A stretch of DNA of 64,000 nucleotides from Lentisphaerae bacterium WC36 (GTDB lineage Bacteria > Verrucomicrobiota > Lentisphaeria > Victivallales > SZUA-371), in contig CP085689.1 in NCBI GenBank assembly GCA_020683205.1, positions 1,736,001 to 1,800,000 on the forward strand, read 5' to 3'. The notes under the pieces were generated by a model. That model was not told the DNA's origin and did not search any database. It saw only the letters and a list, made by a program, of their open reading frames with translations. A program made the translations under genes and the position numbers. Positions 40,349 through 50,487 of this stretch are shown here, in pieces (positions within the stretch are counted from its first letter, which is position 1; each line of letters opens with the position of its first letter).

Positions 40349-40759
40349 ATGTTAAAATTACATGCTTCTTATTCGAAAAAAGTTCCTGCAGAGGAAAAGT
40401 ATTCAAGTCATAGCTTTCACGCTTCAGTTGAGGTTGAATTGCCTGATGGTTTAGCTGAAAATGAACTGCAAAATCGCATTCATCAAACCTTCAAAATGGT
40501 GCGAAATTCAGTTGAAAATGAAATCAGAAATCCTAATTATTCTCAGCAGAACAATTCACAAAATCAAATTAATAATCAAAATCCACCGCAACAAAATGCT
40601 TCAAACGATGTTGCAAGTCCAAAGCAAATTAAATATTTACTGGATTTGTTAAACCAAAGCAACACCCCAATTCAAAACGTCATTAATCGTTTCAATGTCA
40701 ATAGCCTACAAGAATTAACCCGCAAGCAGTGTAGTCAATTAATCGATGAAAGTCAGTAG
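40349..40759 (+). CDS. Conserved small protein of the nuclease/MoxR/VWA module
   Basis: 136 aa. The N-terminal ~60 residues (HASYSKKVPAEEKYSSHSFHASVEVELPDGLAENELQNRIHQTF) form a compact conserved block. A Gln/Asn-rich linker follows, then a C-terminal helical domain (ASPKQIKYLLDLLNQ ... SLQELTRKQCSQLID). This two-part protein is, to my knowledge, regularly found beside Cas4-like nuclease and CobS/CobT-like genes in integrative elements. It may bind DNA or the nuclease. The stop codon lies in an intergenic repeat. Confidence 0.6.
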   Translation: MLKLHASYSKKVPAEEKYSSHSFHASVEVELPDGLAENELQNRIHQTFKMVRNSVENEIRNPNYSQQNNSQNQINNQNPPQQNASNDVASPKQIKYLLDLLNQSNTPIQNVINRFNVNSLQELTRKQCSQLIDESQ

Positions 40760-40800
40760 CACTGACAGGCATTGTAATTCGCTTCGCTCATGGCAAAGTA
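40753..40800 (+). repeat. Intergenic repeat, copy 1
   Basis: TCAGTAGCACTGA (small hairpin) followed by CAGGCATTGTAATTCGCT and CTCATGGCAAAG. Nearly the same 48 bp occurs at 48661-48708; part of it (AATTCGCTTCGCTCATG) is also near 42325. Confidence 0.8.
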
Positions 40801-40829
40801 GCCTTAAAGTTTAAAGTGAAACTCTAACA

Positions 40830-40934
40830 TTGGCGTGAGCTAATTGCGTAATCATTTTAAAAGTTGAAATAAAAATAGTTTTTTATGAAAATTTTAAAAT
40901 ATAAATCTACAAAACAATCAAACAAGAAAAACAC
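40830..40934 (+). repeat. Upstream repeat of leader A
   Basis: TTGGCGTGAGC to CAAACAAGAAAAA is almost identical to 42414-42518 upstream of leader B, so the promoter and leader have been duplicated as one unit. Confidence 0.85.
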
Positions 40935-41024
40935 GTCTCCATCACAAATGCAGACAAAACTGCGAACCCCGTTCCGAATCGTATTCGGGCGGGATCGAAC
41001 GTCGAAACGTTCGCCGTCGGAGAC
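40935..41024 (+). promoter_or_regulatory. Structured leader RNA, copy A
   Basis: 90 nt closed by GTCTCC (40935-40940) and GGAGAC (41019-41024). Inside are GCAG/CTGC (40950-40963), CCGAA/TTCGG (40974-40988) and GAACGT-CGAA-ACGTTC (40997-41012). The ribosome binding site GAGGAAA and the ATG follow within 17 nt. Copies B and C precede the ATPase and VWA genes. Confidence 0.75.
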
Positions 41025-41040
41025 AAATAGAGGAAAAGCT

Positions 41041-42159
41041 ATGAATATTATAAAAAATCTGGAGTCAGCTCTCGTTAAACATGGTGCTGAACATACGGCA
41101 TCAACGCTGGGTGACCGCACAAAATATATTGGGATGTCCGATATCGCAAAAGGTGCTGAATGTTTGCGTTCGGCGGTTGCTGGCAAGTTGGGTGTAAAAG
41201 GTAAAAATAATTGCCTAAATAAACAATTAATTTTACAGCGTGGTCATTGGTTCGAAGGTGGATTGGTTGAAGCGTTGAGAGGTAACAGTCAGCCGTTTTT
41301 TGAGCAACTTGAGATTGCAGTCAATGTTGATGGCGTACCGATTAAAGGACATCTTGATATGGTGTTTTTAAGTGCGGATGAAATTCATGTTGTTGAGGTT
41401 AAAAGCATGGAAGTGATTCCAAATGAAATCTATCAATCGTATAAAATGCAGCTTTATGCTCAGCTGGGATTTTTAGAAAAGTACTTTAACGAACCATGTT
41501 TTAGTTTGCAGGATTCGCACGTTGAAATTTTGCATCAGAGTTTAACGTTATCTGAAATTGTAGAGCAAACTTTCAACATGAAATTAAGTTCAAATCCAAG
41601 TATCAAAGGATCGATATTAGCAGTTTCAATGACTGAAGCGAAATCATTCGATGGCTTTGAGCCAGATGCTAATCGCACACTTCAAGCTGAGTTAATTGCT
41701 AAAGAAATTTGGCAGAACTCTCAAGAGCTTCTCAATGGCCATAAAACGCTAAATGATGTTGAATATTGCCTCAAGTTTTATCCATTATGCGATTGGTGTG
41801 AAGTACAAAATAATTGTCCGAAATTTACCGCAGTAAAATTAGCTAATGATAATTTTGACAGCTTCATAAATGATTTAAAACAGATGAAAATCGATAAGAA
41901 AAAATTAGCTGAATTGATAAAGATTAAGGAAAATAATTTAATTAAATTTTATCAAAATAACAACCTAATCAACGACTGGTTAGAGACGGTAAATTATCGC
42001 TTCAAGGTATCCGATATCAACGGCAGAAACACGATTAACATCAAGGAACTCTGCAAAGAAATCAAGCTAATCATTGGCGAATCCCAAGTCGAAACGCTAA
42101 TCCAAAAGCACACCAAACAAGGTAATCCTTACAGTCGTTTGCAAATTAGTAAGTTGTAG
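41041..42159 (+). CDS. Cas4-like PD-(D/E)XK nuclease
   Basis: 372 aa from the ATG at 41041; the frame is open further upstream through the leader RNA, which is not coding. QRGHWFEGGLVEAL, then VPIKGHLDMVFLSADEIHVVEVKSMEV, is the PD-(D/E)XK core (D...E-x-K). QLYAQLGFLEKYF is the QxxxY motif of the RecB/Cas4 clade. YCLKFYPLCDWCEVQNNCPKF adds Cys residues that may hold an iron-sulfur cluster. It would be an exonuclease, for recombination or defence, in the module with the MoxR-like, DUF3150 and VWA proteins. Confidence 0.75.
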   Translation: MNIIKNLESALVKHGAEHTASTLGDRTKYIGMSDIAKGAECLRSAVAGKLGVKGKNNCLNKQLILQRGHWFEGGLVEALRGNSQPFFEQLEIAVNVDGVPIKGHLDMVFLSADEIHVVEVKSMEVIPNEIYQSYKMQLYAQLGFLEKYFNEPCFSLQDSHVEILHQSLTLSEIVEQTFNMKLSSNPSIKGSILAVSMTEAKSFDGFEPDANRTLQAELIAKEIWQNSQELLNGHKTLNDVEYCLKFYPLCDWCEVQNNCPKFTAVKLANDNFDSFINDLKQMKIDKKKLAELIKIKENNLIKFYQNNNLINDWLETVNYRFKVSDINGRNTINIKELCKEIKLIIGESQVETLIQKHTKQGNPYSRLQISKL

Positions 42160-42413
42160 GTTAATGATTGCTCCGCAGGGCAACGGTTCCGCCGTTGCAT
42201 CACGCCTCCGTACGACGGAGTGCGTTTATACTGAGTGGGTTGCGATTGTGTACTGCAGACGTGTTTTTGCTTACAGATTATGTTGTGAAACTCTATTGAA
42301 ATCTGCACAAAGTGCAGATTTATAATTCGCTTCGCTCATGTTTTCAATTACGATTTTCACAACGATAGCACATAGCAACGCACGCCTTAAACTTCAACAT
42401 GGAACCTTAAATT
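42160..42413. other. Hairpin-rich gap after the nuclease gene
   Basis: No ORF. It has a perfect hairpin AAATCTGCAC (42299-42308) with GTGCAGATTT (42312-42321), likely a terminator, short GC-rich palindromes near 42,180-42,225, and a fragment of the AATTCGCTTCGCTCATG repeat. Confidence 0.55.
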
Positions 42414-42518
42414 TTGGCGTGAGCAAATTGCGAATTCATTTTAAAAGTTGAAATAAAAATAGTTTTTTATGAAAATTTTAAAATATAAATCTACAAAAAA
42501 TCAAACAAGAAAAAACAA

Positions 42519-42609
42519 GTCTCCAATACAAATATAAAACTAGCTACGAACATCGTACCGAGTCCTACTCGGGCGTGATCAAACGGCGAAAGCGTTTGCC
42601 GTCGGAGAC
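42519..42609 (+). promoter_or_regulatory. Structured leader RNA, copy B
   Basis: 91 nt closed by GTCTCC (42519-42524) and GGAGAC (42604-42609). The inner stems are CCGAG/CTCGG (42558-42572) and AAACG-C/G-CGTTT with a GAAA loop (42581-42597, one bulged G). These stems differ from copies A and C, but pairing is kept. The first small stem is weak here. AAAGGAAA and the ATPase ATG follow. Confidence 0.75.
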
Positions 42610-42630
42610 AAAACTAAAGGAAATAAAGTC

Positions 42631-43608
42631 ATGATACATAAAGAATTAGAAACGCTAAAAATGGTTGAAATGGACGCTGGTGAGGTGTTCAGTGGGAAGA
42701 AAAGTAATACGAAGATTATGGGATATGAGGCGAAGAATAGCTTTACTCCAATTAAGGATGAACACTACGTTTTTCACGAACTTAGCCGTGACGTGATTGT
42801 GTGGTTTATGCATAATATTTCACCACTTTATCTGTTTGGTCCAAGCGGTTCAGGCAAGACTTCAGTCATTAAACAATTGGCTGCAAAATTGAATTACCCT
42901 GTGTTTGAAATTAATGGGCATTCGCGCCTTGAGTATCTCGATATGGTGGGTCATTTATCGTTGCAAAATGGTTCGATGAATTTTGAATATGGCCCATTAG
43001 CACTCGCAATGAAATATGGTGGGATTTTCCTGATAAACGAGATGGATTTGCTTGACCCAGCAACAGCGGCAGGATTAAATTCTGTGCTTGATGGGGCTCC
43101 ATTGTGCATTCCTGAGAATGGCGGTGAATTAATTAAACCGCATGAAAATTTCAGATTTGCAGCGACGGCTAACACAAACGGTGGAAGCGATGAAACTTCT
43201 TCATATAACGGCACTTTAAAGCAAAATATGGCGTTAATGGACCGCTTTTTCCTATGCGAAGCACCATATCCAACAGCCGATATTGAGCTGAAATTATTAG
43301 CAAAAGTTCAGCCAAATTTACCTGAAATGGTTCGTAATAAAATGGTTGAATTTGCTAACGAAGTTCGCAATTTATTCATGGGTAACATCAAAGATGAATT
43401 TGAATGCACCCAACGAATTGACGTAACATTTTCAACTCGCACGCTACTTCGTTGGGCTGAATTGACAATGCTATTTCAACCCTTAGCTAAACAGAAAATC
43501 AACGTCGTAAATTATGCACTTGATCGTGCGTTAAGTTATCGAGCATCAACTGAAGGACGCATATTATTAACCGAATTATCGCAAAGAATTTTTGCGGAGG
43601 AGAAATAA
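42631..43608 (+). CDS. MoxR/CobS-like AAA+ ATPase
   Basis: 325 aa. Walker A LFGPSGSGKTSVIKQLA (~residue 72), Walker B GGIFLINEMDLLDP, sensor 1 RFAATANTNG and an Arg-finger context NMALMDRFF define a MoxR/CbbQ/CobS-type AAA+ protein. Such ATPases work with VWA-domain partners as chaperone or remodelling machines. Here the partner is the CobT-like VWA protein at 48.96-50.49 kb, with a DUF3150 protein between. It is preceded by leader copy B. Confidence 0.85.
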   Translation: MIHKELETLKMVEMDAGEVFSGKKSNTKIMGYEAKNSFTPIKDEHYVFHELSRDVIVWFMHNISPLYLFGPSGSGKTSVIKQLAAKLNYPVFEINGHSRLEYLDMVGHLSLQNGSMNFEYGPLALAMKYGGIFLINEMDLLDPATAAGLNSVLDGAPLCIPENGGELIKPHENFRFAATANTNGGSDETSSYNGTLKQNMALMDRFFLCEAPYPTADIELKLLAKVQPNLPEMVRNKMVEFANEVRNLFMGNIKDEFECTQRIDVTFSTRTLLRWAELTMLFQPLAKQKINVVNYALDRALSYRASTEGRILLTELSQRIFAEEK

Positions 43609-43902
43609 CTACAAAGCAACTTGGTATTGTTCAATTGATGCTAATTCTCTAGCAATTTGCTTTTGAGTCTCTCTTACATCGTATTCGTCTTGTAAGCCTA
43701 GCCAAAAATTGGTGCTAGTGCCAAAGAATTTGCTCAAACGCAGTGCTGTGTCGGCAGTGATACGACGTTTGCCTTTGACAATTTCATTGATACGGTGTGC
43801 AGGGACTCTTAGGCCAATTGCTAACTTGTTTTGGCTTAAGTTCATCGGCTTCAAAAATTCTTCTAAAAGAATCTCGCCTGGGTGAATATTTAATGGTTCC
43901 AT
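43609..43902 (-). CDS. higA: HigA-type antitoxin
   Basis: 97 aa. NIHPGEILLEEFLKPMNLSQNKLAIGLRVPAHRINEIVKGKRRITADTALRLSKFFGTSTNFWLGLQ is the classic HigA/VapI XRE-type antitoxin. It would bind HigB and repress the pair. It lies 12 bp after higB, in the usual toxin-first order, convergent with the ATPase gene (stop codons adjacent). Confidence 0.9.
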   Translation of the reverse strand: MEPLNIHPGEILLEEFLKPMNLSQNKLAIGLRVPAHRINEIVKGKRRITADTALRLSKFFGTSTNFWLGLQDEYDVRETQKQIARELASIEQYQVAL

Positions 43903-43914
43903 TTTAGTACTCCT

Positions 43915-44193
43915 TTAATGGTAATCAACGATTTCTACGTTATAAACATGGCCGTCATCAAAAGTAAAACAGATACGCCACTGCTTATTTATTCGAATGC
44001 TGTACTGACCTTGACGAGTGCCTTTTAAAGCCTCAAGATGATTACTTGGAGGAATCAATAAATCCTCAATAATTTCTGCGTGCGAAAGCATAAATAACTT
44101 ACGTAATGCTTGACGCTCAAAGGCTTTGAAATGGCGACTACGCCCTTTATTGAACAGTTCAGCGGTCTTTTTACACTTAAAATTTTTAATCAT
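43915..44193 (-). CDS. higB: HigB-type toxin
   Basis: 92 aa. MIKNFKCKKTAELFNKGRSRHFKAFERQALRKL ... SIRINKQWRICFTFDDGHVYNVEIVDYH is the HigB/RelE-like plasmid maintenance toxin, an mRNA interferase acting at the ribosome. The conserved WRICF and VEIVDYH end are present. A good promoter lies upstream on the minus strand: TTGACA, 17 bp, TAAAGT, with GTTATAAAG repeated twice as a possible operator (about 44,205-44,250). Confidence 0.9.
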   Translation of the reverse strand: MIKNFKCKKTAELFNKGRSRHFKAFERQALRKLFMLSHAEIIEDLLIPPSNHLEALKGTRQGQYSIRINKQWRICFTFDDGHVYNVEIVDYH

Positions 44194-44284
44194 TAGTTAA
44201 ACCTTTATAACTTATCTTTCTATACTTTATAACCTTTAACATACAATGTCAAGCATTTAACTAAAAACATAAGGAAAATAAATC

Positions 44285-47200
44285 ATGAAAAATCAAAATA
44301 AATGTAATACTCAAATTTTGAAAAATATTATTGCTGTGAACCTGGATGTTAGAATCTGGTCGGCACGCAAAAAATTGCACGAAAATGACTTTGAACATTC
44401 ACAGTTGCCACCTGAAAGTTTGGCTTCATTGGGTCATAAACGAGTATGTGGTGCGACTTGTTGTTAATTGAAAAGATTAACTATAGCAATTTATTTGCTA
44501 TAAACTAATAATCTGAGAAGATGGAATGATGGAGTAACGCCCTGAAACGTCTCCTTTAATACTCCGATATGCGTTCAGTTATGTTATCAACTGAAGGTGT
44601 AAAGCTCGGTGAAGTCGGCTGAGAAGATACCCTAACGAGTAATGTCGAGGAATAGCGAACCAGAGGTGGTCGAGTATCTGATAGGCCGGAAGTCTATAAA
44701 TTATCTATGGTGAGAATGTCCATTGAGGACTGACGAACTTCTGAATGTACAGGTCTAAACTTTTAAAATACAGAAATGTATTTATCACAATTGTGATGTA
44801 AGTGTGGTTGAGTAGGATTCGCATATACGAAAATCCATGTATTGTTACAGGCAATATCAAGCTTACAGGTTTATAGGAAGCATCTAAGGATAAATGCATA
44901 GATAAGATTATTGGAACAAGGAAAGGTCAGAACGTGGAGTGATAACACACTGAGAAGCGGAATGCTATATAAAACCATTAGGTATTAAAAGCAATTTGTC
45001 TGACTGAGAGCGGAGGCATGAGCTATGAATTTGTTGTAATGGCAAAGGAGCAACAGCCTCTAGTCAATTATAACTATAATCAAAAACACATATCCATTCG
45101 TAGGTTTCGGGTATGACTAAGAGAGGTCAAATCAATTCAATAGAAAATGAGGAGACCGACTATGAGTAAAACAAAAGAAAACTTAAAGAGGCAAAATTTG
45201 CGAAATAACGAATACTATAATTTTCAAGAAACTTTTGATAAACTGTATGAACAAAGTTACAATGGTAAAAAATTCCAAAATTTATTAAAATTTATAATTC
45301 GGGAAGAAAACATATTGTTAGCCTACAGAAATATTAAAAGAAACAAAGGGAGTCAAACGCAAGGAGTCGATTCGAAAGACATCAGATTTCTTGCAAATAT
45401 GACTACGAATGAATTAGTATCATTTATACGCAAAAAATTGCAAAATTATTTTCCTAAAAAAGTTAGACGTGTAGAAATTCCTAAAGCAAATGGAAAAACT
45501 AGGCCTTTAGGGATTCCAACAATAGAAGATAGATTAATACAACAATGTATTATGCAGGTATTAGATCCTATTTGCGAAGCCAAATTCTATAAGCATAGCT
45601 ATGGTTTTAGACCTTTACGATCTGCAAAACATGCAATTGCAAGATGTAACTTTAATATAAATAGAACAAAGCTACACTATGTAGTAGATGTTGATATTAA
45701 AGGATTTTTCGATAATATAGACCATGCAAAACTATTAAAACAATTATGGGCATTGGGAATACAAGATAAATCTTTATTGAAGGTAATATCTAAAATGCTT
45801 AAGGCAGAAATTGCTGGGGTGGGAGTTCCTACAAAAGGGACTCCACAGGGCGGTATTTTATCACCTTTGTTAGCAAATGTAGCTTTAAATGAATTTGATT
45901 GGTGGATAGCGAGTCAATGGGATCAATATAAAAGTCATCATCAATATACAGGAAGCCATAAATTTCGAGCCTTAAAAACAACAAGGCTCAAAGAAATGCA
46001 TATTGTACGCTATGCTGATGACTTTAAAATCTTCTGTAGAAACTATACCGATGCAAAAAAGATTTTCACTGCGGTCAAAAACTGGCTTGAAACGCGATTG
46101 AAGCTAGAAATCAGTCCAGAAAAATCTAGAATAACGAATTTAAAAAAGAATTATTCAGAATTTCTTGGAATAAAGATTAAAGTGAAAAAAAAAGGAAAAA
46201 GAGTCTTAAAAGGACAGTTTGAAGATAAATATGTGACAGATTCACATATTGCAGATAAAGCAAAGAAAAGAATATTATTACAAGTTAAAGTCTTTATTAA
46301 AAGAATCCAACGCTCTACAGGTATAGAGGTACTTATAAATATTGATAAGTATAATGCCTATGTGATTGGAGTTCATAATTACTACAACATCGCAACATGT
46401 TGTAATTTAGACTTTCACAAAATAGCCTTTCTTAGTCTTCGGGCACGGGAAAACAGACTTACTTTAAGAAGAAGAAAGCACGACGAAAAATTGCCACGAT
46501 ATATACAGGACAGATATGGTAAATCAAAATGCCTACGGTTTATATATAATAAACCGTTCCTACCTGTAAGCTATGTACAATTTAAGATGCAGCCCTCATA
46601 TAGTGGCTGGTCCCCTTATGTTGAAAATGACAGGAAAAATTTTCATAGCAATCAAAAATCCGTTAGTTCAATTTTTATACAAGAACTTCTTAAGCGTCCA
46701 ACGCCAAGGAAAAGTGTAGAATTTAATGATAATCGGATTGCTTTATTCGTAGCACAGTATGGAAAATGTGCCATTACTGGTGAAAAATTAGATATTGATG
46801 ATATTCACTGTCACCATAAAAAACCGATAAAACACGGTGGAGGCGATGAATATAGGAATCTCATAATTATACATGAGAAAGTTCATAAACTGATTCATGC
46901 CAGTAAAACTAACACAATCCAAAAGATTATACGTCAACTCAATCTTAGTGCAAAAATGATTGAGAAGCTGAATTCTTTGAGAATACAAGCTCAACAAGTG
47001 CCTATACTTTAAGAACCTATATGTTTTACGAGATATGATTGTATTGAGTAGTTATAAATGATGGAACGCCGTGTGCGGTGAAAGTCGCACGCACGGTGTG
47101 GATGGAGGGAAAACTTGGAGATAACTTCAAAGGGTTACCTATCCATATATCCAAATAAATTGAAAATCTTCAGTACTCTTAAATCACGGGCTGTGAAATT

Positions 47201-47936
47201 GTTGGATAAATTCGGAGTACGATTCTTAGGTGGCTGGGGTGTACCAATGGCGAAGGCAGATAAAATCGTCGCTGAGCTTAAAAATATCCAAACTGAGTTC
47301 ATGACGGCAAAATCAGAGTTCATAAAAAATTATGATAAAGCAGTCAAAAATTGGATCAAAAATAATGCCGAATGGGAAAATATGATTAAAAATTCGGTGG
47401 TGAGTGCGAATTATGTCGCAGGCAAAATTGACTTTATATTTCAGTTATTTGAGGTCAAAAATAGTACAGTTGATAACCTCAATTCTGGATTAAATTATGA
47501 AGTTTCCAGCCTCGGCAATCGCCTTTTTGATGAAGTCGCTAAGCAAGCACAACAGGCCTATGATAAAAGCTTCAAAGGTAAATCAAACGTCACTCGAAAA
47601 GCATTATCGCCAATTAAATTAATCAAAGACAAATTGAATGGTTTGAGTTTCACTGAGCCACATATTTGTGCAGTGGTTAGTTTAATTGACAACGCCTTAA
47701 CGTGCATCCCAAAGCGCGGCGCAATCGAAGGTGAAAATCTTGAAATGCTTAAAAAGTTACTAGAATTAATCGCCGAAAAGAAAACGCTTTTAGACATGGC
47801 TGAAAAAGTTCTTAATGGCACTTCTGAGCAGGAAATAATTCAGAAGTTAATGGTAGTATCAACAAGAACTAAACCTAAAAAATCAAAGAAAAAATCTACA
47901 ACCAACAGTCACATTGACAGTTGCGGTTTATGGTAG
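44285..47936 (+). CDS. DUF3150 protein gene, interrupted by a group II intron
   Basis: Exon 1 is 44285-44450 and exon 2 is 47149-47936. Joined, they give 954 nt, 317 aa, in frame. Exon 1 ends GHKRVC plus one base; exon 2 supplies AT then PNKLKIFSTLKSRAVKLLDKFGVRFLGGW, restoring the DUF3150 pattern (LGSKRV ... FLGGW). The rest is helical, with a Lys-rich end and Ser/Thr tail. Without splicing, translation stops five codons into the intron. AAGGAAAA precedes the ATG. DUF3150 genes occur between CobS-like and CobT-like genes in SXT/R391-like elements; function unknown. Confidence 0.8.
44451..47148 (+). mobile_element. Group II intron with maturase
   Basis: It starts GTGCGAC, ends in AT, and contains a reverse transcriptase gene. 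Domain V is 47066-47099 (34 nt): ACGCCGT (47066-47072) pairs with ACGGTGT (47093-47099), with GTGCG/CGCAC inside and a GTGAAAGT loop. The catalytic triad is CGC. Candidate exon-binding sites: EBS1 CGCATA (44820-44825) with exon TATGTG (44445-44450), one G-T wobble; EBS2 TTTAT (44781-44785) with exon ATAAA (44436-44440). The 3' boundary was set by restoring the host frame. It lies in the same orientation as the host gene. Confidence 0.85.
45162..47012 (+). CDS. ltrA: Group II intron reverse transcriptase/maturase
   Basis: 616 aa from the ATG at 45162, with GAGGAG upstream. The RT domain runs from about residue 60 to 320 (RVEIPKANGKTRPLGIPTIEDRLIQQ, YGFRPLRSAKHAI, VDVDIKGFFDNIDH, GTPQGGILSPLLANV, and IVRYADDFKIFC with the catalytic YADD). 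A maturase (X) domain follows, and a C-terminal HNH endonuclease (CAITGEKLDIDDIHCHHKKPIKHGGGDEYRNLIIIHEKVHKLIH). All catalytic residues look intact, so the intron should be able to splice and move. Confidence 0.95.
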   Translation: MSKTKENLKRQNLRNNEYYNFQETFDKLYEQSYNGKKFQNLLKFIIREENILLAYRNIKRNKGSQTQGVDSKDIRFLANMTTNELVSFIRKKLQNYFPKKVRRVEIPKANGKTRPLGIPTIEDRLIQQCIMQVLDPICEAKFYKHSYGFRPLRSAKHAIARCNFNINRTKLHYVVDVDIKGFFDNIDHAKLLKQLWALGIQDKSLLKVISKMLKAEIAGVGVPTKGTPQGGILSPLLANVALNEFDWWIASQWDQYKSHHQYTGSHKFRALKTTRLKEMHIVRYADDFKIFCRNYTDAKKIFTAVKNWLETRLKLEISPEKSRITNLKKNYSEFLGIKIKVKKKGKRVLKGQFEDKYVTDSHIADKAKKRILLQVKVFIKRIQRSTGIEVLINIDKYNAYVIGVHNYYNIATCCNLDFHKIAFLSLRARENRLTLRRRKHDEKLPRYIQDRYGKSKCLRFIYNKPFLPVSYVQFKMQPSYSGWSPYVENDRKNFHSNQKSVSSIFIQELLKRPTPRKSVEFNDNRIALFVAQYGKCAITGEKLDIDDIHCHHKKPIKHGGGDEYRNLIIIHEKVHKLIHASKTNTIQKIIRQLNLSAKMIEKLNSLRIQAQQVPIL

Positions 47937-47950
47937 TTTTGTTTTATCTA

Positions 47951-47978
47951 TTGAATTATACGTTTAACGTATTATATT
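47951..47978 (+). promoter_or_regulatory. higBA promoter with operator palindrome
   Basis: TTGAAT (47951-47956), 16 bp, TATATT (47973-47978). The spacer holds the perfect palindrome ATACGTT-T-AACGTAT (47958-47972), a likely HigA operator for autoregulation. Confidence 0.65.
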
Positions 47979-48002
47979 AAAAGTAATTAACAGGATTTGA
48001 TT

Positions 48003-48281
48003 ATGATAAAAAGTTACAAATGTAAAGAGACTTTGAAGCTCAAATCCACTGGTAAAAGCAAGAAGTTTAAGGCGTTTGAACGCTTGGCATTGAGGAAGTT
48101 AGACATGCTTGATGCTGCGGTTAGCGTTGAGTCCATGCGTATCCCTCCAGGCAATCGTTTGGAGGCGTTGCACGGAAAACGCGAAGGACAATGGAGCATT
48201 CGTATTAACAACCAGTGGCGAGTTTGTTTTAAGTGGCATGATGGTCATGCATATGATGTGGAAGTCGTTGATTATCACTAG
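48003..48281 (+). CDS. higB: HigB-type toxin (second module)
   Basis: 92 aa from the ATG at 48003, with CAGGA upstream; a TTG two codons earlier is less likely. IKSYKCKETLKLKSTGKSKKFKAFERLALRKLDMLDAA ... SIRINNQWRVCFKWHDGHAYDVEVVDYH is a second HigB. It is clearly related to, but distinct from, the one at 43.9-44.2 kb. It reads rightwards with the module. Confidence 0.9.
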   Translation: MIKSYKCKETLKLKSTGKSKKFKAFERLALRKLDMLDAAVSVESMRIPPGNRLEALHGKREGQWSIRINNQWRVCFKWHDGHAYDVEVVDYH

Positions 48282-48292
48282 GAGACAGAAAA

Positions 48293-48589
48293 ATGATTAG
48301 AACAGAAACCTTGATTCATCCAGGCGAAATTTTGTTGGAGGAATTTTTAAAACCGATGGACATTAGTCAGCATAAATTAGCAATGGATATTCATATTCCT
48401 GCGACAAGAATCCATGCAATTGTGCATGGTAAACGTGCAATTACTGCTGATACTGCATTAAGATTAGCGAAGTATTTTGGCATGGAAGCGCAGTTTTGGA
48501 TGAATATGCAAAACAGTTACGATTTGTGTTTAGCTGCTAAAAAAGCTCAACAAGATTTAAAGACAATTCCACAGCTAATCGCTTCGTAA
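48293..48589 (+). CDS. higA: HigA-type antitoxin (second module)
   Basis: 98 aa. IHPGEILLEEFLKPMDISQHKLAMDIHIPATRIHAIVHGKRAITADTALRLAKYFGMEAQFWMNMQNSYDL is a HigA antitoxin, 11 bp after its toxin, with AGGAGA upstream. It diverges enough from the first HigA, in the recognition helix too (TRIHAIVHG against HRINEIVKG), that the two modules may not cross-neutralise. Confidence 0.9.
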   Translation: MIRTETLIHPGEILLEEFLKPMDISQHKLAMDIHIPATRIHAIVHGKRAITADTALRLAKYFGMEAQFWMNMQNSYDLCLAAKKAQQDLKTIPQLIAS

Positions 48590-48616
48590 TAAACTAACTA
48601 CAATTATAAAGCATAG

Positions 48617-48656
48617 AACACCCTCTGAGTGCAATTTTGCATTTAGTGGGTGTTTT
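48617..48656 (+). terminator. Terminator after higBA
   Basis: AACACCC (48617-48623) pairs with GGGTGTT (48648-48654), with further pairing GTGC/GCAT-type inside, then TTTGTG. Confidence 0.65.
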
Positions 48657-48660
48657 TGTG

Positions 48661-48708
48661 TCAGTAGCACTGACAGGCATTGTAATTCGCTATGCTCATG
48701 GCAAAGCA
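48661..48708 (+). repeat. Intergenic repeat, copy 2
   Basis: Almost identical to 40753-40800 (TCAGTAGCACTGACAGGC, then TGTAATTCGCT and CTCATGGCAAAG). Confidence 0.8.
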
Positions 48709-48742
48709 CGCCTTAAACATTAATAAAATTTTAAGGGTTGCA

Positions 48743-48817
48743 AGGGATTTTTATAAAAATCCCTGCCAAGCGGAGCGCAGAAAAACAACTCAATTTATGT
48801 TGAGTAGCAACATAAAT
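48743..48817 (+). other. Two perfect hairpins upstream of leader C
   Basis: AGGGATTTTT/AAAAATCCCT (48743-48764) and ATTTATGTTG/CAACATAAAT (48793-48817). They may be terminator-like barriers before the VWA gene's own promoter and leader. Confidence 0.5.
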
Positions 48818-48851
48818 ATTAATCGTTAAGCAACCAAACAAGAAAAAACAC

Positions 48852-48941
48852 GTCTCCAGCACAAATGCAGACCTAACTGCGAACATCGATCCGAATCGTA
48901 TTCGGGCGAGATCGAACGTCGAAACGTTCGCCGTCGGAGAC
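48852..48941 (+). promoter_or_regulatory. Structured leader RNA, copy C
   Basis: 90 nt, closed by GTCTCC (48852-48857) and GGAGAC (48936-48941). The GCAG/CTGC, CCGAA/TTCGG and GAACGT-CGAA-ACGTTC stems are the same as in copy A, although the linker bases differ. AAAGGAAT and the VWA gene's ATG follow. Confidence 0.75.
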
Positions 48942-48963: not shown

Positions 48964-50487
48964 ATGAAAGATTTTTCAATAGCACAAATATGTCAGGCAC
49001 TGCCACTTGTTGCGGGGGTGCTTGGACAACGTTATGGAGTTGAGGTGACGATTGGTGGGAATACTGCTTATACTGATGGTAAACGCATTAATTTACCATC
49101 GTTACCTGTTGAATGCGATGAAGTTCTGATGCATTTAATACGAGGGTGGGTTGATCACGAATCTGCACATATTAGGCATACAAACTTTGAATTAATTAAG
49201 GGTAAACGATTGAGTGATTTAGAGAAGAATATTCTCAATATTTTTGAAGATTGGCGCGTCGAGCGTGAACTTTCAAATCAGTACATTGGCTGTAAAAATA
49301 ATTTTGCGTGGCTGGTTGATTATTACTTCAATAAAGATGTTGATTTGAGTTCAAAACAGAGCAACGATGCGAAACTAATAGTCAACTATATTCTGCTGAA
49401 AGTACGTAGTTTTACCGTTACTGAAGTTGGCGTTCATGCTGAGAATTTACGTTCATTTCTAGAATCACATTTTAGTAATGTGTTAACTGAAATTGATAAA
49501 ATAATTCAGAGCATGAAAGCTAATGCAAACTCAACTCAAGATTGTTTGAAGTATGCGAAAAAGGTTACTGCGTTGCTGAGAAAGTTAATTAAAAGTGATG
49601 CTGAATCGAAAGCAACTAAAAAGCAGTTAGAAAAGTTGCTCAAAGCTAAAAGTGGTGATCTGCCTAAAGATTTCGCTGGAAAAATCCAAGGTGAATTAGA
49701 AGCAAAAGCTCCGAATCATAGCAACAGTTTAGTACAATCGTCGCGCGCTGTTGAGAATAAAGCTAAAGCGTTTGATAGTGAAATGTTAAATAAAGGAAAC
49801 ACCACGGCAAATCAGTTAAGAAGATATTTTTGCAATCTACTTCAAGCTAAAGATTTGCAACGTGTTCGAGAATCGAGTTACGGGCATAAAATCAATGTTA
49901 AAAAGTTGGCGAAAGCTCCATTCAATTGCAAACTATTTCTCAAAGATGCGGAGAAGATTAAGAGCAATACCGCAGTGCATTTATTGCTTGATTGTTCGCT
50001 TTCAATGCGTGATGACATTGAGTTGGCGAGCCTCTCGTGTTATTCGATTGCAAAGGCGTTACACGGCTTAAATAATATCAGTGTTGGCGTGACTGCGTTC
50101 CCAGTTTTCGTTCCTGAAAGTAGTGATAATTATGTCGTGAATGTGTCGCAAATTCTAAAGCACGATGAGCGTATGCATAATAATTTCAACATTAAAGTTT
50201 GTGGTTCAACGCCGATGGGTGCAGCTCTTTGGAGCGTGTTGCAAGCGTTTTATCAGCGACGTGAAAATCGTAAGATAATTTTCATCATCACTGACGGCGA
50301 ACCAGATGAAATCGACAACGTAAAGTTAACACTCAAAGCTGCTGAAAAACTCAACATTGAAGTCTATGGTATCGGCATCAAAGATACCCATATCAAGGAT
50401 ATTTTACCTCAAAACAGCAAAATAATCCACAACTTAACTGACTTAACCTCAACCATAAAAACATTGCTAAAAAAGAGTTTAATTTAA
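48964..50487 (+). CDS. CobT-like VWA protein
   Basis: 507 aa. The N-terminal ~300 residues are helical and contain HESAHIRHTNFE (an HExxH-like motif of unclear meaning) and a Lys-rich middle. The C-terminal ~200 residues are a von Willebrand A domain with an intact metal site: LLLDCSLSMRDD (DxSxS), CGSTPMGAALW (Thr) and IFIITDGEPDE (Asp). It resembles CobT of the cobaltochelatase pair and would be the partner of the MoxR/CobS-like ATPase at 42.6 kb. No cobalamin genes are nearby, so a role in metal insertion is unlikely. Confidence 0.85.
   Translation: MKDFSIAQICQALPLVAGVLGQRYGVEVTIGGNTAYTDGKRINLPSLPVECDEVLMHLIRGWVDHESAHIRHTNFELIKGKRLSDLEKNILNIFEDWRVERELSNQYIGCKNNFAWLVDYYFNKDVDLSSKQSNDAKLIVNYILLKVRSFTVTEVGVHAENLRSFLESHFSNVLTEIDKIIQSMKANANSTQDCLKYAKKVTALLRKLIKSDAESKATKKQLEKLLKAKSGDLPKDFAGKIQGELEAKAPNHSNSLVQSSRAVENKAKAFDSEMLNKGNTTANQLRRYFCNLLQAKDLQRVRESSYGHKINVKKLAKAPFNCKLFLKDAEKIKSNTAVHLLLDCSLSMRDDIELASLSCYSIAKALHGLNNISVGVTAFPVFVPESSDNYVVNVSQILKHDERMHNNFNIKVCGSTPMGAALWSVLQAFYQRRENRKIIFIITDGEPDEIDNVKLTLKAAEKLNIEVYGIGIKDTHIKDILPQNSKIIHNLTDLTSTIKTLLKKSLI

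Follow-up and report, generated by a model that had tools for sequence, protein, structure and literature searches.

The three elements of about 90 nt that stand before the nuclease, ATPase and VWA genes of a module in Lentisphaerae bacterium WC36 are very probably copies of a dispersed, non-coding, two-hairpin palindromic repeat of REP/MITE-like character. They lie in a window of 64,000 nucleotides (contig CP085689.1, positions 1,736,001 to 1,800,000 of the forward strand), and the initial annotation had read them as one structured leader RNA that coordinates the three genes. The module genes and the elements are these:

41041-42159, + strand: Cas4/RecE-like exonuclease, the nuclease (phrog_434, 2.6e-7; Cas4-domain phrog_1990, 1.5e-6)
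42631-43608, + strand: CobS/CbbQ-like AAA+ ATPase
44286-47936, + strand: DUF3150 gene, with a group II intron at about 44451-47148 and an intron ORF at 45147-47012
48964-50487, + strand: CobT-like VWA protein
40935-41024, + strand: element A, ending 16 nt 5' of the nuclease ATG at 41041
40974-41013, + strand: two-hairpin core of element A
42519-42609, + strand: element B, ending 21 nt 5' of the ATPase ATG at 42631
48852-48941, + strand: element C, ending 22 nt 5' of the VWA ATG at 48964

All three elements are found within the 11-23 nt before a gene start that had been described (the gaps are 16, 21 and 22 nt), each is closed by GTCTCC/GGAGAC as claimed, and each folds better than its dinucleotide shuffles (z = -4.6, -4.0 and -3.5 for A, B and C, respectively). 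As described, no element precedes the DUF3150 gene, whose reading frame is interrupted by the group II intron. The paired changes reported between A and B (pair 44-50, A-U to G-C, and pair 63-79, G-C to A-U) also hold; beyond these, a third pair, 17-28, is compensated between A and B, and pair 35-58 is compensated between A and C only. Three or more compensated pairs arose in about 0.5% of 100,000 simulations with 20 random changes, and the double-sided changes among A, B and C exceed chance. Some details have to be amended: in hairpin 3 of copy B the left arm reads AAACGGC where AAACGC had been given, and the right side has an additional G; in copy B half of the first hairpin (GCAG/CTGC) is disrupted, and the wider family does not keep this hairpin; and the outer GTCTCC/GGAGAC stem, counted as part of the element, lies outside the conserved core of the family. 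Nor are the copies independent, as had been implied, since A and B have about 190 nt that are 81% alike, and A and C have their upstream start in common. The frame 5' of the nuclease gene (40885-41040) is open through element A and could encode an N-terminal extension. A promoter scan gave only chance-level signal.

The module is present in five versions in this 3.66 Mb genome, that of the window and four others (L007, L008, L013 and L014), among which the following units vary:

40752-41024, + strand: unit A, between an ORF at 40349-40759 and the nuclease gene; junction empty in L013 and L014
42170-42609, no strand assigned: unit B, between the nuclease and ATPase genes; missing from L007 and L013, while L014 has its left part
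42170-42260, - strand: element D, the left end of unit B (covariance-model scores R1 38 bits, R2 80 bits)
48660-48941, + strand: unit C, behind a HigBA-like gene pair; junction empty in L013 and L014

In L013, the compact version, the genes overlap or lie 8-17 bp apart, the DUF3150 gene is uninterrupted, and none of the three elements is present. Because these short junctions are empty, the elements sit on insertions, and comparison of the versions shows that the units entered between genes that originally lay close together in a compact operon. L014 has no element before the nuclease or VWA gene. L007, whose ATPase is identical to that of the window and whose nuclease is 97% so, has element A but neither unit B nor an element ahead of the ATPase or the VWA gene, and unrelated sequence stands at the end of its junction to the VWA gene; in L008 element A adjoins the ribosome site of the VWA gene with nothing in between, as recombination between copies predicts. 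A switch shared by the nuclease, ATPase and VWA genes is contradicted by this absence of elements from L013 and, in part, from L014 and L007. Unit B is bounded by outward-facing inverted elements, D (-) and B (+), the former of which had been missed, and units A and C each have a truncated reversed element at the left end and element A or C at the right end. The truncated elements consist of a variable stem around AGC (a GTCAGT-AGC-ACTGAC hairpin in unit A) and then GGCATTGTA.

Other inserts are found in the same module. Two HigBA-like toxin-antitoxin pairs lie within it (43609-44193, - strand, and 47997-48589, + strand) and are absent from L013; the intron at 44451-47148 carries an HNH-bearing maturase, and a related intron lies inside the VWA gene, near residue 67, in L007 and L008. 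The gene set is that of the SXT/IncC-type bet/exo/CobS/DUF3150/VWA module, and Proteus pR997 and an IncC plasmid carry it adjacent to genes for Bet and a lambda-type exonuclease; unlike the window module, these plasmid loci are without the element, and blastn did not find the insert unit in plasmids. The ATPase had no match at E<=1e-20 in the 59 other genomes of the 60 searched, matching its own genome only, and an initial search of genome contigs with the ATPase protein gave no match.

A covariance model made from the three copies, the search that the initial annotation had proposed, recovered five more diverged copies in the WC36 genome, and a second model added those at 834119+ (clear, E 1e-4) and 346192- (weak, E 0.09). 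The genome holds six further diverged copies, in both orientations and adjoining unrelated genes; from the translations we take some of these neighbours to be leuS and ahcY, which have a copy behind them, and an rRNA methyltransferase gene, which has one before it. At the copy behind ahcY (L032, 1330-1930), about 150 bp of the 3' end of the gene, with its terminator, are duplicated on both sides. Inverted pairs of copies also surround two ORFs without a Pfam match; the inverted pairs in this genome are 1778170-/1778519+, 832467-/834119+ and 346192-/347883+, the last including the weak copy. Within the order (Lentisphaeria/Victivallales) the second model matches at least 35 of 137 genomes at E<=0.01, WC36 included; three of these genomes have 57, 38 and 20 copies. 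The tandem copies brought integron attC sites into consideration, but copies in CP087563 span 0.7-6.7 Mb, which speaks against a single attC array. A tRNA-like origin was rejected after an ARAGORN scan of the window detected no tRNA. The exact motif is also present in Phycisphaeraceae, one complete planctomycete genome, Hydrogenedentota and single proteobacterial MAGs; these matches have the hairpin 3 motif in common and weak model scores, so common descent outside the order is only a candidate. In Planctomycetes bacterium syqfu (L131, L144, L156, L157, L172 and L205) the motif lies inside a longer intergenic repeat, of which about 200 nt are alike between copies scattered over the chromosome, and at two other loci (L077 and L078) elements lie amid intergenic arrays of very short palindromes (GCCGTAAGGC and CCGCCGGAGGC). 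The motif had not been recognised as a named family, and in agreement with this an Rfam scan at gathering and relaxed thresholds matched the group II intron only; a literature search on the core letters gave no match.

The conserved part of the family is a double hairpin of 50-55 nt, CG-NN-[6 bp stem, T-NNN-A loop]-(A/G)CG(T/C)G(A/G)TC-[6 bp stem, GCG(G/A)AA loop]-(T/C)CGCCG. Among 69 distinct copies, in an alignment fitted to the structure, both core hairpins are almost always paired, every pair of hairpin 2 shows double changes, and helix 3 is paired in 98.6% of cells with all six of its pairs changed on both sides, which none of 500 shuffles matched. Double-changed cells number 253, against 75 in column shuffles, and slid-partner controls collapse. 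A structure-free MAFFT alignment with RNAalifold gives the same two hairpins (9 of 12 pairs doubly changed), and a perfectly paired stem of 6 bp or more (hairpin 2) lies upstream of the exact hairpin 3 motif at 54 of 76 sites as against 5 of 1520 shuffles. The hairpins proposed at the outset are thus real, and their pairing is strongly kept across a large family. Two findings had been named in advance as telling against a leader function, unrelated neighbours and loss of pairing; the former was found, and the pairing is conserved. The outer pair of the stem is C-G in 64 of the 69 copies, with a 3-nt loop, and the loop orientation is constant (CGT or GCT rather than ACG or AGC). The reverse strand folds equally well, and the counts of G-U pairs (9-11) show no excess over those of A-C mismatches (7-10), which gives no preference for the RNA level; the property under conservation would be the hairpin structure itself, as single-stranded DNA or in a transcript.

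How does this repeat relate to the known classes? It has the general features of a REP, being a dispersed extragenic palindrome mostly in unidirectional and convergent gaps, which REPs likewise prefer to divergent ones (PMC3733652), though its copy number here (57 at most) is below the >100 usual for REPs (PMC2817692). Like the CGTC REPs (PMC3733652) it is a short intergenic palindrome found in several phyla, in unidirectional and convergent gaps, with complementary stem changes and no dedicated transposase found. On the reverse strand CGTC precedes the hairpin in about half of the copies here, the rest having CGCC or CGAC. However, the CGTC REPs have an 8-9 bp stem starting with A-T, a 4-5 nt loop and a CCA tail, whereas here the stem has 6 bp, starts with C-G and closes on a 3-nt loop; and, unlike them, the repeat consists of two hairpins joined by a fixed linker. 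Direct tandem pairs, which prevail in the relatives here, are negligible for CGTC REPs in that account, from which Lentisphaeria are absent. With the GTAG REPs and BIMEs (PMC2817692, PMC3733652) it has in common extragenic palindromes, mosaic clusters and a position mostly 3' of genes, but the GTAG tag at the hairpin base is absent. MITEs such as ERIC, NEMIS and RUP (PMC3733652) resemble it in that non-coding inserts of 270-440 bp adjoin genes and carry, in three cases, inverted copies of the element at both ends; unlike MITEs, the element also stands singly and in direct tandem, no matching transposase was found, and the empty sites are too diverged to define target duplications. A Y1/RAYT transposase was considered as the driver and rejected: the WC36 genome has no RAYT-type/Y1 gene, and the 30 Y1 genes examined in relatives have no element closer than about 1.5 kb. 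The repeat is apparently an undescribed family outside the published GTAG and CGTC families, whose defining features it mostly lacks.

The most probable history is one in which the repeat, found at the termini of inserted units (three times as an outward-facing inverted pair), spread passively, through an enzyme acting in trans or by recombination between copies. Nearby genes may experience side effects or exaptation, through polarity, mRNA stability, new promoters or the context of ribosome sites, and any putative effect on the nuclease, ATPase and VWA genes would be incidental or exapted.

Placement in the relatives gives some ground for a role beyond this. Many copies begin between about -23 and +40 relative to a stop codon. 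Of 78-101 copies, 63-75 are in sense with the upstream gene and 15-26 are antisense to it (p about 1e-6); the gaps are convergent in 18-21 cases, unidirectional in 40-45 and divergent in 1-6, and close pairs are direct tandems in 18 cases and inverted in one (these counts are approximate, with ORFs called mechanically, contigs overlapping between collections and identical copies removed). The neighbouring genes are functionally unrelated (symporter, SDR, DnaB, PriA, LacI, AraC, MFS, HAD and others). Sense bias and direct tandem pairs are unexpected for a purely passive element, and the position just 3' of stop codons lends plausibility to a function in the transcript, at the 3' ends of mRNAs. 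Tentatively, then, the element might act in stability, end protection or processing of mRNA 3' ends and multiply as a repeat, the window copies being displaced; the avoidance of divergent gaps agrees with this, while the parity of G-U and A-C, and the copies in the WC36 genome, which unlike those of relatives are frequently antisense, do not. Slightly less likely still is a broader proposition: that this undescribed two-hairpin element is widespread, occurring in Lentisphaeria and perhaps in several other phyla, that it works within transcripts at their 3' ends, and that an enzyme or copying mechanism different from that of RAYT-driven REPs spreads it.

We consider it improbable that the compensation reflects template switching that repairs quasi-palindromes in replication, with little selection on the fold. 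Such switching can create compensatory changes (PMC8794818), and near-perfect stems with G-U and A-C intermediates in equal frequency are what it would leave, but the linker and loop letters are conserved and the loop orientation is fixed, for which copying of arms alone is insufficient. Very unlikely is a riboswitch or protein-binding leader co-regulating the nuclease, ATPase and VWA genes, which would likewise predict the common sense orientation of A, B and C at 16-22 nt from start codons and accords with their stable fold and compensatory changes, but which is opposed by the paralogous modules without it, by related elements that adjoin unrelated genes elsewhere, partly antisense (as in WC36 itself) and in relatives mostly after genes, and by the lack of a G-U excess, of a retained outer stem and of an Rfam match.

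The initial annotation, in short, caught a real conserved fold and attached the wrong function to it: when the copies belong to a repeat family, compensatory changes at a single locus are poor support for a riboswitch. The dispersed two-hairpin repeat is best classed as a new family of REP/MITE-like type. It gives a little-studied group of bacteria a family of palindromic repeats that seems not to have been reported before, and offers for study a strong sense bias 3' of stop codons together with a covariance model.
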